Below, piece after piece: positions 1,268 to 11,859 of a DNA stretch of 26,100 nucleotides. Source of the DNA: a virus. Both the position numbers and the translations under genes were made by a program. Within the stretch, counting starts at the first letter, position 1. Each line of letters opens with the position of its first letter. The stretch spans positions 1-26,100 of the IMG/VR virus record IMGVR_UViG_3300017776_000158. One strand, given 5' to 3'. The notes beneath the pieces were generated by a model, which saw nothing but the letters and a program-made list of their open reading frames with translations, had not been told where the DNA came from and made no database searches.

Positions 1268-1431
1268 TGAAAAGAATGTGGCAAATTTGGAAATATGCAT
1301 TAGGGTCATTTAATGATGAAGATACCCGACCAGTAGAAGACCAAATCACCATTATTAGAACCATAATTCTATTAGTCAATTTACTTTGTGCTGTTATGAT
1401 TATGGCAAATATTATAAGGAGCTGGTTATGA
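1267..1431 (+). CDS. small membrane protein (54 aa)
   Basis: Starts MKRMWQIWKYALGSF and has one hydrophobic segment at about residues 29-49, ending in RSWL. The start overlaps the previous stop (TAATG), and AAGGA at 1255-1259 is well placed as ribosome binding site. The stop overlaps the next ATG (ATGA at 1428-1431). From memory, near-identical small proteins with the same N-terminus recur in marine T4-like and Pelagibacter-type phages, always of unknown function. A single-span inner-membrane protein with a cytoplasmic N-terminal segment is likely. A minus-strand reading frame here is a shadow. Confidence 0.75.
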   Translation: MKRMWQIWKYALGSFNDEDTRPVEDQITIIRTIILLVNLLCAVMIMANIIRSWL

Positions 1432-2612
1432 AAAATATAACAGTAGTCGGATCAGGTTATGTAGGTATGGCTAATGCAACAATGTTGGCCAAATACAATA
1501 CTGTTACCATTTTGGATATTAATAAAGAACGTGTGGATATGGTTAATAATAAAAAGTCCACGGTTGAGGATGCATGCATACAAGAGTATTTGGATAACGA
1601 AGTATTATCCTTAACAGCAACTACTGATACTGAAATGGCATATACTGATGCTGACTGGGTAATCATTGCAACTCCTACAGATTATGACGAGACCAAAAAT
1701 TACTTTAACACTGATAGTGTGCAATCTTGTATCAGAGATTGTGTATCATATAATCCAAATGCAAATATTGTAGTAAAGTCCACTATACCTGTGGGGTTCA
1801 TCGACAGTATGCAAAGAAAATTTGGTAAGTTTAATATTTTATTCTCGCCAGAATTTCTACGAGAGGGTAGAGCATTACGCGATTGTTTACGACCAGAAAG
1901 AATAGTCATAAGTGATAGAACTGAAGTCGGCAAAGAATTTGCCGAGATTATAACTGAGTGTATCATACCTGAATATCCAATGGCCCCTGTGTATTTTACA
2001 GGTAAGAAAGAGGCAGAATCAATTAAACTCTTTGCCAATACATACCTTGCAATGAGAGTTGCATTTTTCAATGAATTGGATATGTATGCAGAGTCAATGA
2101 ATATGAACCCAGAGGAAATTATCCTAGGGGTAACATCAGACTCGCGTATCGGTAAAGGTTATTGTAATCCTTCTTTTGGGTATGGTGGTTATTGTTTTCC
2201 TAAAGACACTAGGCAACTACTTGCCAATTTTAGAAAGCAAAGAATACCTAATAAGATTATACAGAGTATTGTATATGCTAATGAAAATCGAAAAGACTGG
2301 ATAACCAATAAAATTTTACAATGTGATGGGGTATCAGTAGTAGGTATCCATAGGCTTGTAATGAAATCTGGTTCTGATAACTATAGGTCTTCGGCCATTC
2401 AAGGCGTTATTATGCAGTTATTAAATAATAATGTTAAGGTTATTATATACGAGCCAAGTCTAAATACAAAAGAATTTATGGGCTGTATAGTAGAAACCGA
2501 CCATGCAAAATTTAAAAAATTATCGGATCTGATTGTGACTAATAGGCTCGATCGAGATTTGGATGATGTACTAGAAAAAACTTACACAAGGGATATATTC
2601 AATGACAATTAA
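1428..2612 (+). CDS. ugd: UDP-glucose/GDP-mannose 6-dehydrogenase family
   Basis: 394 aa from ATG 1428, chosen over an in-frame ATG at 1386 because AAGGAG at 1416-1421 sits 6 bases before it and the protein then begins directly with the Rossmann strand MKNITVVGSGYVG (GxGxxG at 8-13). Further family signs are KSTIPVG, SPEFLREG and the active-site loop GYGGYCFPKDT with catalytic Cys256. The family oxidises the C6 hydroxyl of an NDP-sugar to the uronate using two NAD+, through a thioester on this Cys. UDP-glucose is the likely substrate, but GDP-mannose or UDP-N-acetyl sugars cannot be excluded. Its C-terminus overlaps mazG by 11 bases, and a sugar-nucleotide epimerase lies just downstream. Inference: a two-enzyme sugar-nucleotide route altering surface polysaccharide. 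Confidence 0.9.
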   Translation: MKNITVVGSGYVGMANATMLAKYNTVTILDINKERVDMVNNKKSTVEDACIQEYLDNEVLSLTATTDTEMAYTDADWVIIATPTDYDETKNYFNTDSVQSCIRDCVSYNPNANIVVKSTIPVGFIDSMQRKFGKFNILFSPEFLREGRALRDCLRPERIVISDRTEVGKEFAEIITECIIPEYPMAPVYFTGKKEAESIKLFANTYLAMRVAFFNELDMYAESMNMNPEEIILGVTSDSRIGKGYCNPSFGYGGYCFPKDTRQLLANFRKQRIPNKIIQSIVYANENRKDWITNKILQCDGVSVVGIHRLVMKSGSDNYRSSAIQGVIMQLLNNNVKVIIYEPSLNTKEFMGCIVETDHAKFKKLSDLIVTNRLDRDLDDVLEKTYTRDIFNDN

Positions 2613-2898
2613 TGAATTGATAGAAAAGACAGAACAATGGCATTACGACCGTAACCTAATTAATGGCGCTACTGATAAGGATCAAGTTTTAAAATTAATC
2701 CAAGAAGTGGGCGAACTCTCCGATAACGTATGTAAGGGACAAGATATCCGAGATGATATTGGAGATATAGTAGTAGTGCTAATTAATATCATGGCACGTA
2801 ATAGCTTGACGCTAGAAGAGTGTTTAGAAGTCGCCTATAATGATATTAAAGACCGTAGGGGTAAAATGGTTGATGGAATCTTTATCAAAGAGGGTTGA
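2602..2898 (+). CDS. mazG: MazG-like nucleotide pyrophosphohydrolase
   Basis: 98 aa, all-alpha MazG fold. The metal-binding acidic residues are visible as E35xxE38 (QEVGEL) and D51-D52xxD55 (RDDIGDIV). Family members hydrolyse (d)NTPs to the monophosphate plus pyrophosphate. Short phage MazG proteins are common in marine myoviruses and have been proposed to clean nucleotide pools or act on ppGpp-like signals; the substrate here is unknown. The start lies inside the dehydrogenase gene (11-base overlap), implying coupled translation. The early promoter of the next gene begins at 2895, inside the last codons of this gene. Confidence 0.85.
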   Translation: MTINELIEKTEQWHYDRNLINGATDKDQVLKLIQEVGELSDNVCKGQDIRDDIGDIVVVLINIMARNSLTLEECLEVAYNDIKDRRGKMVDGIFIKEG

Positions 2899-2923
2899 CA
2901 AATACTATAAAATGTGTTATAAT
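2895..2923 (+). promoter_or_regulatory. sigma70-type early promoter
   Basis: Perfect TTGACA (2895-2900), 17-bp spacer, TATAAT (2918-2923), with TGTG just upstream of the -10 (extended -10). It overlaps the 3' end of mazG and gives a short leader to the epimerase ATG at 2945, with AAAGGA as ribosome binding site. Confidence 0.85.
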
Positions 2924-2944
2924 AGAACAAAGAAAGGATAGAAT

Positions 2945-3805
2945 ATGAAACAGAAAGTGTTAGTAATCGGTGGTGCCGGTTTTGTTGGTTCCCACTTATG
3001 TAAACAACTTGCAGATATGGACTATGATGTAGTGTCATTGGATAACTACTTTACTGGCAGTAGTTCTAATCATCATGCTGGTGTTCAATATTTAGAAGGT
3101 AATGCCAGTGACCTATTCTCGGTATTTGGTTATGAACCTTTACAGTTTAATTATATCTTTCACTTTGGCGAATATGCTAGAGTAGAACAATCATTCGATG
3201 ATTATAAAACTGTAATGGATTATAATTATCATTCCTTTCCTAAAGTCCTAGAATTTGCAAACCATTCTAAGGCCAAATTTATCTATTCCGGTTCATCTAC
3301 TAAATTCTCTGTCGGAGAAGATGGTAAGATGATGAGTCCATACGCTTATACTAAAGCACAGAATACAGAATTCCTTAAGGCATATGCTGAATGGAATGAC
3401 CTAGAATATGCAATTGTCTATTTCTATAACGTATATGGAGACGGAGAAATTTCAGATGGTAAGTACGCAACTGTTATTGCTAAATTCCTAAAACAAATTA
3501 AGGAAGGTGCAACCGAACTTACTATTACACGACCAGGGACCCAGAAAAGAAACTTTACACACATTGACGATACTGTTGATGGATTAATCAAAGTTATGCA
3601 ATATGGTAAAGGAGATAAATGGGGAATCGGCAATAATAAGGCATACTCAATGTTAGAAGTTGCTGAGATGATGGGAGCAACTCCTGTTATGACACCCGAA
3701 AAACCTGGCAATAGAATGGCAGGTGAAGTCCATAATGAAATGCTAGTAGCGATTGGATGGAAACCTGAAGTTGATTTACAGGATTACATAAAGGAGAATT
3801 TATAA
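2945..3805 (+). CDS. NAD-dependent sugar-nucleotide epimerase/dehydratase (extended SDR)
   Basis: 286 aa. The NAD-binding GGAGFVGSH lies at residues 9-17. The catalytic Tyr133-xxx-Lys137 (YAYTK) is preceded by the serine-rich SGSS strand, and VYFYNVYG and RNFTHIDD follow, as in UDP-glucose 4-epimerases and UDP-glucuronate decarboxylases. The family interconverts or modifies NDP-sugars through a 4-keto intermediate. Exact product unknown. With the dehydrogenase at 1428 it may act on a UDP-uronate. It has its own strong promoter and overlaps the following SleB gene by one base (TAATG). It is somewhat shorter than the usual 310-340 residues. Confidence 0.85.
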   Translation: MKQKVLVIGGAGFVGSHLCKQLADMDYDVVSLDNYFTGSSSNHHAGVQYLEGNASDLFSVFGYEPLQFNYIFHFGEYARVEQSFDDYKTVMDYNYHSFPKVLEFANHSKAKFIYSGSSTKFSVGEDGKMMSPYAYTKAQNTEFLKAYAEWNDLEYAIVYFYNVYGDGEISDGKYATVIAKFLKQIKEGATELTITRPGTQKRNFTHIDDTVDGLIKVMQYGKGDKWGIGNNKAYSMLEVAEMMGATPVMTPEKPGNRMAGEVHNEMLVAIGWKPEVDLQDYIKENL

Positions 3806-10036: not shown

Positions 10037-10113
10037 GCGCCCGTAGCTCAACAGGATAGAGCAACGGCCTTCTAAGCCGTAGGTTATAGGTTCGATTCCT
10101 ATCGGGTGCGCCA
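10037..10113 (+). tRNA. tRNA-Arg (anticodon UCU)
   Basis: Complete cloverleaf: acceptor GCGCCCG (10037-10043) pairs with CGGGTGC (10103-10109) with one G-U; anticodon stem ACGGC/GCCGT encloses the loop CTTCTAA with anticodon TCT; T stem ATAGG/CCTAT encloses TTCGATT; discriminator G, and the terminal CCA is encoded at 10111-10113. It reads AGA and AGG, the Arg codons favoured in the neighbouring AT-rich genes, so it probably supplements a scarce host tRNA. Confidence 0.95.
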
Positions 10114-10594: not shown

Positions 10595-10764
10595 TGGAAA
10601 TTAATGCAACAATACCTGTTCAATATAATAAACCAAATATTGAATACCAACAGATTACTGTAAAGGTAAATGGACAACAACAATCACAAACAGTTTACAC
10701 TTATGATAAACGCGGTAATTTGATTGAAACTGTTGTACGTACACATAATATAGGATCAGTGTAA
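10594..10764 (+). CDS. small hypothetical protein (56 aa)
   Basis: Begins MEINATIPVQYNKPN and ends RTHNIGSV. Supported mainly by the TAATG overlap with the previous stop and an uninterrupted frame to a TAA just before a promoter. Gln-rich centre (VNGQQQSQTVYTYDKRG), predicted beta-hairpins. No family recognised. A minor chance frame remains possible. Confidence 0.5.
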   Translation: MEINATIPVQYNKPNIEYQQITVKVNGQQQSQTVYTYDKRGNLIETVVRTHNIGSV

Positions 10765-10792
10765 AATAAATAACATTTTTTTAAAAAAAGTG

Positions 10793-10821
10793 TTGACAAA
10801 GTGGTTATGATGTGTTATAAT
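10793..10821 (+). promoter_or_regulatory. sigma70-type early promoter with upstream A/T tract
   Basis: Perfect TTGACA (10793-10798), 17-bp spacer, TATAAT (10816-10821) with TGTG before the -10. A T7-A7 tract at 10776-10789 lies directly upstream and could act as an UP element. AACA (10772-10775) and GTGTT (10790-10794) flank it as an imperfect dyad. The leader carries AAGGAG before the ATG at 10853. Confidence 0.85.
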
Positions 10822-10852
10822 ATACATATATTAAATGATAAGGAGAATAAAA

Positions 10853-11035
10853 ATGTCAAATTTAACTAACACACAAATCATGGAATCAATCATTGAAGAT
10901 GTTGAGAAAATGAGTTTAGGAGCTATGGCCCACGAAATTGGACAACCATGGAGATGCGTTGGAATCAGAAGAGATGCAGTCGATAGTTTAATCGAAGATG
11001 TATGTAACAAAAGATTCGAGGCAATGGGAGACTAA
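10853..11035 (+). CDS. small hypothetical protein (60 aa)
   Basis: Start set at ATG 10853 because AAGGAGA lies about 7 bases upstream; the longer in-frame start at 10835 would put that ribosome binding site inside the gene. It begins MSNLTNTQIMESIIEDVEKM and is predicted largely alpha-helical, with a central GQPWRCVGIRRD. It is the first gene after a strong early promoter, which suggests an early host-takeover role, but no homology is recognised. Confidence 0.65.
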   Translation: MSNLTNTQIMESIIEDVEKMSLGAMAHEIGQPWRCVGIRRDAVDSLIEDVCNKRFEAMGD

Positions 11036-11036
11036 T

Positions 11037-11216
11037 ATGGACTATGCAAAATTACTAGCAGAGTGTTCTATTAGAGATGGAGAACAAAGATACACAGAAG
11101 ACCAGATTAGGTCTATGGTTGGTGCACCTTCTACGGAAGAAGAAGAACTATGCACCTGTGGTGAAGATTTAGAATCCTGTCCAGAGTCCTACGTCCATAT
11201 GACGTCAGGAGTTTAG
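11037..11216 (+). CDS. small acidic Cys-containing protein (59 aa)
   Basis: Start ATG 11037, just after the previous stop; a longer frame from 10998 would run through the preceding gene. The C-terminal half carries ELCTCGEDLESCP followed by YVHMTSG. The CxC...C...H spacing could bind one zinc, but it is not a standard finger. It is immediately followed, with no gap, by the structured GC-rich stretch at 11217. Function unknown. Confidence 0.6.
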   Translation: MDYAKLLAECSIRDGEQRYTEDQIRSMVGAPSTEEEELCTCGEDLESCPESYVHMTSGV

Positions 11217-11375
11217 AGGCAGTCGTCACCTATCGGACGAAATAAAGCGAGAGGGGGTAGTGGCCGAACACTCATACAGAAATGAAAAAGTCTGTACCAT
11301 CGGGGGACGAGTCCGGGGTCAGGGTGGCAACCTGTAACCCCCCAAATAGCCAACTTATGAGAAGGCCCCGGACTC
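11217..11375 (+). ncRNA. GC-rich structured RNA of unknown class
   Basis: No credible reading frame; roughly 55% G+C by hand count (87 of 159), far above the AT-rich neighbours. Helices readable by eye: TCGTC (11223-11227) with GACGA (11236-11240); AGTG (11259-11262) with CACT (11269-11272); TACAGA (11275-11280) with TCTGTA (11291-11296); GAGTCCGGGG (11309-11318) with CCCCGGACTC (11366-11375), a perfect 10-bp helix that extends by G-U and C-G; CAGG (11320-11323) with CCTG (11331-11334). GGGGG (11302-11306) can pair with the C-run 11338-11343 inside the big helix, a pseudoknot. An alternative pairing of GGGGT (11315-11319) with ACCCC (11337-11341) competes with the 10-bp helix. It may be a cis-regulatory leader of the gene at 11397 or a stable small RNA. 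I recognise no Rfam family. Confidence 0.65.
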
Positions 11376-11396
11376 AACTATTATTATGGAGAAGTT

Positions 11397-11699
11397 ATGA
11401 ATTTATACGCCTCACTTCGATACGACCCTTCTGGTCGTAAAAGAAAAACCAATTCACTTAAAACTCGGAAGAAAAAGGTAGTATTCAAACCTTACAAGGC
11501 CGAGAAAACTTACGCTCAATTACAGATGGAAGAATTTAATAAGAAATATCCATCTTGGACTGGCAATACTAAATATGAACCAGGGGAAGACCAATCTTGG
11601 AAACAAGAAGCTTCTAAAAACTTTACAGTTGCCCCTGCATATAACAAGGGAGCATACCAAGTGATTCCATCCAAAGATATAGAACACATAGGAAAGTAA
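11397..11699 (+). CDS. basic hypothetical protein
   Basis: 100 aa, Lys/Arg/Tyr-rich N-terminal half (SGRKRKTNSLKTRKKK), then a polar region with tryptophans (YPSWTGNTKYEPGEDQSWK). The basic region could bind nucleic acid. GGAGAAG lies just before the ATG, and a weak AACT/AGTT helix (11376-11379 with 11393-11396) could loop out this ribosome binding site. It is directly downstream of the structured RNA and is the obvious candidate for control by it. Family not recognised beyond a vague resemblance to marine T4-like phage hypotheticals. Confidence 0.65.
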   Translation: MNLYASLRYDPSGRKRKTNSLKTRKKKVVFKPYKAEKTYAQLQMEEFNKKYPSWTGNTKYEPGEDQSWKQEASKNFTVAPAYNKGAYQVIPSKDIEHIGK

Positions 11700-11700
11700 A

Positions 11701-11859
11701 ATGGAAGATTTACAAGCATACAAAGTTCTAGCAATAGATAAAGAAACAGATAAAATGGTTGCAGAATATATCTTTGATTCGTTAAAAGAGGCAATGAAAT
11801 TTCATGCCCAAATGACGGTTAAAGGTTATCTATCAATTTTAGAAAGAGTTGCAATTTAA
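11701..11859 (+). CDS. small hypothetical protein (52 aa)
   Basis: Begins MEDLQAYKVLAIDKETDKMV and ends LSILERVAI. It starts one base after the previous stop, and its stop overlaps the next ATG (TAATG). A beta-beta-alpha pattern with a helix SLKEAMKFHAQMTV resembles small phage proteins with no assigned role. The ribosome binding site (GGAAAG) lies inside the upstream gene's end. Function unknown. Confidence 0.55.
   Translation: MEDLQAYKVLAIDKETDKMVAEYIFDSLKEAMKFHAQMTVKGYLSILERVAI

Follow-up and report, generated by a model that had tools for sequence, protein, structure and literature searches.

A conserved two-pseudoknot RNA element ahead of small genes in marine T4-like phages, probably a new family of translational leader

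Comparison of a 26,100-nucleotide stretch of viral DNA (hereafter the window) with its relatives confirms that positions 11174 to 11375 of the plus strand, within a small operon of a marine T4-like phage, encode a real and conserved pseudoknotted RNA structure. The evidence for this element in its two-module form comes from a 16-sequence alignment, counts of paired positions, and a tree-based covariation test, and the structure is kept in about two dozen related virus fragments. Judging from these comparisons, the element is probably a new family of translational leader that would work like a riboswitch or like the T4 gene 32 operator. Finding one RNA family ahead of six different small genes suggests that phage mRNAs are under regulon-like control acting through RNA. 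The fold is clear and testable, and the covariance models make the family searchable in other marine data.

The first-pass annotation of this DNA had described a GC-rich, unclassified, possibly pseudoknotted RNA at 11217 to 11375. The GC richness was borne out, as the 159-mers starting at 11215 to 11218 are the GC-richest in the whole window (0.55 vs. 0.36), and no ORF was found in 11217 to 11375. The folding energy of this interval is ordinary relative to shuffled sequences (z = 0.22), indicating that thermodynamics alone would not pick out the element and that the evidence for it is the covariation among relatives. While the proposed 3' end held, the real start lies approximately 40 nucleotides earlier than proposed, at about 11174 to 11177, within the 3' end of ORF 11040-11216.

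Homologues were collected from IMG/VR loci encoding the 100-aa protein downstream of the element, and DNA-pattern searches then added more; all come from viral contigs of metagenomes, and many of these contigs are short. In eight loci from the protein-based set, the element lies directly 5' of the 100-aa gene. The two-module alignment contains 16 distinct sequences including that of the window, with long gaps confined to the P0 arm. Under a 61-pair model that includes three crossing helices, 97.1% of cells in these 16 sequences are paired and 12 pairs are changed on both sides, compared with 32 to 48% of cells paired in slid controls. The covariation score of the model is 0.170, and none of 500 shuffles matched any of its values. 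Because relatedness can inflate pair counts, we ran a second, tree-based null in which the inferred substitutions of each branch were redistributed over positions, covering about 20,000 column pairs. The best E(struct) values were 0.001 for P2, 0.008 and 0.026 for P1, 0.054 for Pd, 0.078 for Pc, and 0.12 for P1.1. The P2 pair is the best of the whole alignment and the two P1 pseudoknot pairs rank 2 and 4; also among the top-ranked column pairs are one P2 neighbor pair and two pairs tied with Pc that involve column 17. E values taken over all column pairs are weak (best 0.3) due to the small sample. The RNA is conserved above its downstream gene, with nucleotide identities of 78 to 92% vs. 73 to 75%.

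At its 5' end, the element begins with the P0 arm (11177 to 11222, plus strand), in which 11177-11181 pairs with 11218-11222, 11184-11190 with 11207-11213, and 11191-11195 with 11201-11205. Three of these pairs are changed on both sides and 93 to 99% of cells are paired, and the covariation of the arm is the weakest in the model (best E 0.19). ORF 11040-11216 runs into the arm with its 3' end and stop codon, and some homologues lack the inner part of the arm. It is followed by the 5' module (11223 to 11296), which consists of an H-type pseudoknot and two hairpins. In the pseudoknot (11223 to 11254, plus strand), stem S1 pairs 11223-11227 with 11236-11240, stem S2 pairs 11229-11235 with 11248-11254, and the A-rich crossing loop (AAUAAAG) occupies 11241 to 11247. 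The earlier fold had correctly placed helices and a pseudoknot in the 3' half and had missed this second pseudoknot in the 5' half. Four S2 pairs are changed on both sides, and on S2 the hand alignment agrees with the model-fitted one. The S1 outer pair is variable and the S1 core (CGUC/GACG) is invariant, in a set of copies most of which came from patterns demanding that core. Hairpin Pc (11259 to 11272, plus strand; AGUG/CACU) has three of four pairs changed on both sides and carries the loop GCCGAA, which is NCCGAA in most homologues. Hairpin Pd (11275 to 11296, plus strand; UACAG/CUGUA) has all five pairs changed on both sides and carries the loop AAAUGAAAAAGU, of which the core AUGAAAAG is kept in most homologues but not in L233.

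Six other sequence types have the 5' module and lack the 3' module (L087; L005/L102; L111/L118/L131/L142; L122/L123; L124/L125; L233). Across 19 aligned copies, 13 of its 21 pairs are changed on both sides and the score is 0.410, compared with at most 0.095 in slid versions; these counts lean towards S2, Pc, and Pd because the alignment was model-fitted to those helices. L233 was found by the refined covariance model R3 only (46.6 bits), with no sequence pattern. It retains the S1 core, has G-C instead of U-A as the outer S1 pair, and keeps all but one of the seven S2 pairs (the exception is an A-C mismatch), with changed pair identities and the same spacing to the start codon. Two candidates were dropped: a match at 5827 of L133, in which the pseudoknot strand is missing, and a match of model R2 in L076, which sits in unrelated sequence.

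We observed the 3' module (11302 to 11375) in the window's clade only. Its pseudoknot helix P1 (11302 to 11342, plus strand) pairs 11302-11306 with 11338-11342; this is the G5/C6 pairing proposed in the first-pass annotation, and homologues show it as GGGGG/CCCCC, GAGGG/CCCUC, and GGGAG/CUCCC. The perfect 10-bp helix reported at 11309-11318/11366-11375 is likewise present, any such helix being found in only 5 of 2000 shuffles. Its extent requires correction, as the homologues give a 12-bp helix P2 (11309 to 11375, plus strand; 11309-11320 with 11364-11375) in which the added pairs covary as UC/GG, UG/CA, and GC/GC. P2 encloses P3, a 3-bp helix on the plus strand (11321-11323/11331-11333). P1.1 (11326 to 11351, plus strand) pairs 11326-11328 (GGY) with 11349-11351 (RCC); two of its pairs are invariant and one shows a C-G/U-A exchange, which is weak by itself. 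A competing 9-bp pairing that had been read as a possible switch can be drawn, but none of its pairs change on both sides, and two of them break in 10 and 5 of the 16 sequences, respectively; the comparison thus lends the proposed switch no support.

Searches for known families and for other carriers returned no relative of the element. In Rfam 15, only a tRNA reached the gathering threshold and weak matches at E up to 10 were unrelated, and neither ARAGORN nor Rfam detected a tmRNA or tRNA-like domain in the element. A likeness to the glutamine-II riboswitch vanished against the real sequence and the strand order differs (PMC6698751); Rfam gave no match to that family (RF01704), and its P1-PK-P2 arrangement is not found in the element. 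The first-pass annotation had named absent covariation and a match to a known family as the two findings that would speak against it; both were checked, and with covariation in the homologues and no Rfam family, its description as an unclassified, pseudoknotted RNA stands. Searching 50,697 phage records by blastn with three versions of the element yielded chance pieces only. Two exact patterns searched against 84,980 bacterial and archaeal genomes gave no match and then two matches, close to chance expectation and lacking the hairpins; since the patterns were exact, divergent copies in bacterial genomes could be missed. Model searches of ten complete or long phage records from isolates or single cells, among them HTVC008M, Mosig, Melnitz-1, C48C1, P-TIM68, S-SM2, and T4, gave weak chance scores only.

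The DnaB-type helicase of the window's phage is closest to those of a marine single-cell virus and of phages assigned to Kyanoviridae; phage C48C1 carries a NifU-like gene near its helicase. A tRNA-Arg (TCT) gene at 10037 to 10113, the sole ARAGORN/Rfam tRNA match, lies just 3' of thyX and 1.1 kb upstream of the element. A putative promoter with a 12/12 consensus match (TTGACA-17-TATAAT, extended TG; 10793 to 10821, plus strand) precedes the small operon that contains the RNA. Some relatives have IscU-like iron-sulfur assembly genes upstream of this operon (L095 1601-2295; L008, L023, L096, L099, L101), with an IscA-like gene in L095 as well. Elsewhere in the window, UDP-sugar dehydrogenase-like and epimerase-like genes at 1386 to 3805 are possible sugar-modifying cargo. 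Many consecutive genes (13539, 14802, 15170, 16470, 17039, 17278, 18385, 20168, and 21498) have MKSFKE-like starts (such as MKSLTGYLSEA, MKSFKEYTDANEA, and MKTFKEIREN), which are similar to the N-terminus that targets internal head proteins of T4 to the capsid; gene 17278 has an AAA/zeta-toxin-like kinase domain and gene 15170 a cytidylyltransferase-like start.

Directly 3' of the element, an AU-rich spacer (11376 to 11399, plus strand) contains the Shine-Dalgarno sequence GGAG (11388 to 11391) and the start codon (11397) of the 100-aa gene (11397 to 11699, plus strand). The 100-aa protein has no Pfam or PHROG match, and its alignment shows a variable middle between two short conserved ends, GSLRYDPxGRKRKT and SKNFTVAPAYNKGAYQVIP. 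In 15 of 16 homologues, 18 to 23 nucleotides separate P2 from the start of this gene. Six unrelated genes follow the 5' module on its own strand, and the last helix of the RNA lies 18 to 28 nucleotides from ATG or, for the ferredoxin gene of L082, 35 nucleotides from GTG. The six genes encode the 100-aa protein (window and most others), a ferredoxin-like protein (L082/L089), an 87-aa protein (L087), a 59-aa protein (L111/L118/L122), a 184-aa protein with DnaJ-like zinc motifs (L124/L125), and a 51-55-aa protein (L233). The ferredoxin-like ORF, which replaces the 100-aa gene in L082 (1344-1751) and L089, has two cysteine clusters of the CxxCxxC type and is fused in frame to a homologue of the window's 11702 gene; we considered L082 as a chimera and dropped this idea, as the expected phage genes follow along the contig. 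L124/L125 carries MoxR-type AAA and VWA/metallopeptidase-like genes and is apparently from another phage lineage; relatives of its 184-aa gene occur in Pelagibacter phage HTVC023P and Actinomycetia phage DSL-LC01.

Given this arrangement, we moderately favor the view that the element acts in cis as a leader RNA and controls translation of the gene that follows. Support comes from the compensatory changes, from the RNA being better conserved than the gene, and from L233, a copy found pattern-free with the same spacing. In genomes as compact as those of phages, proximity to a start codon counts for little by itself. In the inspected copies, the last helix lies 12 to 15 nucleotides from the Shine-Dalgarno sequence, which is where a bound 30S subunit has its upstream edge. 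The 5' module would act as the receptor for one trans-acting factor, which could be a metabolite or an RNA-binding protein of the phage or its host; the NCCGAA loop, AUGAAAAG, and the A-rich crossing loop are conserved on freely changing stems and thus look like a binding surface. Since the last helix borders the ribosome footprint on its upstream side, binding of the factor could change 30S loading on the start region just downstream. The 3' module, located between the 5' module and the ribosome-binding site, might be a second receptor or a relay from the 5' module to the start site. With one type of module before many genes, one signal could control several small phage genes. Several observations count against a leader: there is no conserved anti-Shine-Dalgarno helix and no terminator was seen in 10600 to 11800, so no expression platform is identified; the six downstream genes have no obvious common function; the RNA is missing ahead of most relatives of the 100-aa gene; and the promoter matches described below are near chance. 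More tentatively, the element could be a riboswitch of a new class or a new kind of RNA operator bound by a single phage protein, a two-pseudoknot, phage-only RNA that coordinates several unrelated phage genes to one signal in the infected marine cell; we regard this narrower reading as conceivable and hold it with some doubt.

It is unlikely that the element is a trans-acting structured non-coding RNA, cut from a polycistronic transcript and acting elsewhere as T4 rnaC and rnaD may, with the neighboring gene incidental. In its favor, the RNA is kept as the gene behind it varies, and, at about 200 nucleotides and with two pseudoknots, it is bigger than a simple leader would be expected to be. 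The T4 RNAs, two annotated stable RNAs whose role is unassigned, adjoin a tRNA-Arg gene, and the window has a tRNA-Arg gene 1.1 kb upstream of the element. However, models R1 and R2 do not match rnaC or rnaD, no terminator lies 3' of the element, and six different genes show a narrow spacing between the RNA and the start codon. Promoter-like sites end about 10 to 12 nucleotides 5' of the module in L087 (TTTACT-17-TATAAT, 10/12) and L124 (TTGACC-18-TAAAGT, 9/12), at near chance frequency, and would place it at the 5' end of the transcript. Together with the shared strand and narrow spacing, these sites favor a cis leader over a free RNA.

The same two sites would suit a role as a 5'-end stabilizer or processing site, in which the pseudoknot shields the mRNA from 5'-end degradation or marks an RNase E cut, and no T4 mRNA is more stable than that of gene 32, which carries a pseudoknot at its 5' end (PMC3014915). 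This role is improbable, as most copies lie inside operons and the NCCGAA and AUGAAAAG loops are kept while the stems change, beyond what a plain barrier needs.

HDV-like ribozymes are known in phages (theta ribozymes) and for the HDV-like family a catalytic cytosine in J4/2 is reported to be indispensable (PMC10879173). The 3' module shares their nested double-pseudoknot strand order of P1, P2, P3, and P1.1, including a 3-bp P3, with P1 and P2 well supported and P1.1 by one exchange. That it is a self-cleaving ribozyme of this kind is nevertheless very improbable, since no cytosine is common to all homologues in the stretch from P1.1 to the 3' strand of P2 (the segment in L096, UUAAUGAAAA, is without any C), P1 is shorter at 5 bp, the linkers are longer (6 nucleotides ahead of P1.1), P4 is absent, and no Rfam ribozyme matches even at E up to 10.

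Structured cis-regulatory RNAs also occur in marine T4-like phages as riboswitches, such as the glutamine riboswitch of Melnitz and Mosig (PMC9004378), although no Rfam riboswitch matches our element. The PeSL mobile regulatory cassettes of T4-like phages consist of a promoter and a terminator stem-loop (Arbiol et al. 2010, cited in PMC4503421). Both are regulatory elements ahead of changing small genes in a variable region, whereas our element has no terminator and its window copy has no adjacent promoter, the nearest consensus promoter being 350 nucleotides upstream.

In both the element and the gene 32 leader of T4, T2, and RB69, an H-type pseudoknot lies in the 5' leader of an mRNA from a T4-like phage, with an AU-rich stretch and then a ribosome-binding site after it. 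The stem and loop lengths of the T2 gene 32 pseudoknot are close to 5/1/7/7, the lengths found in the element. Like the element, the T4 gene 32 pseudoknot overlaps the end of the upstream ORF (PMC535899, PMC3014915). The gene 32 operator has an AU-rich stretch of more than 40 nucleotides with UUAAA repeats, compared with a spacer of about 12 to 15 nucleotides after the last helix of the element, which also has two extra conserved hairpins, the 3' module, and several unrelated target genes. None of the six downstream genes encodes gp32, the ssDNA-binding protein. Thus, because target gene and spacer differ, the element is not a member of the gene 32 operators, yet by its possible mode of action the gene 32 leader may be its nearest precedent.
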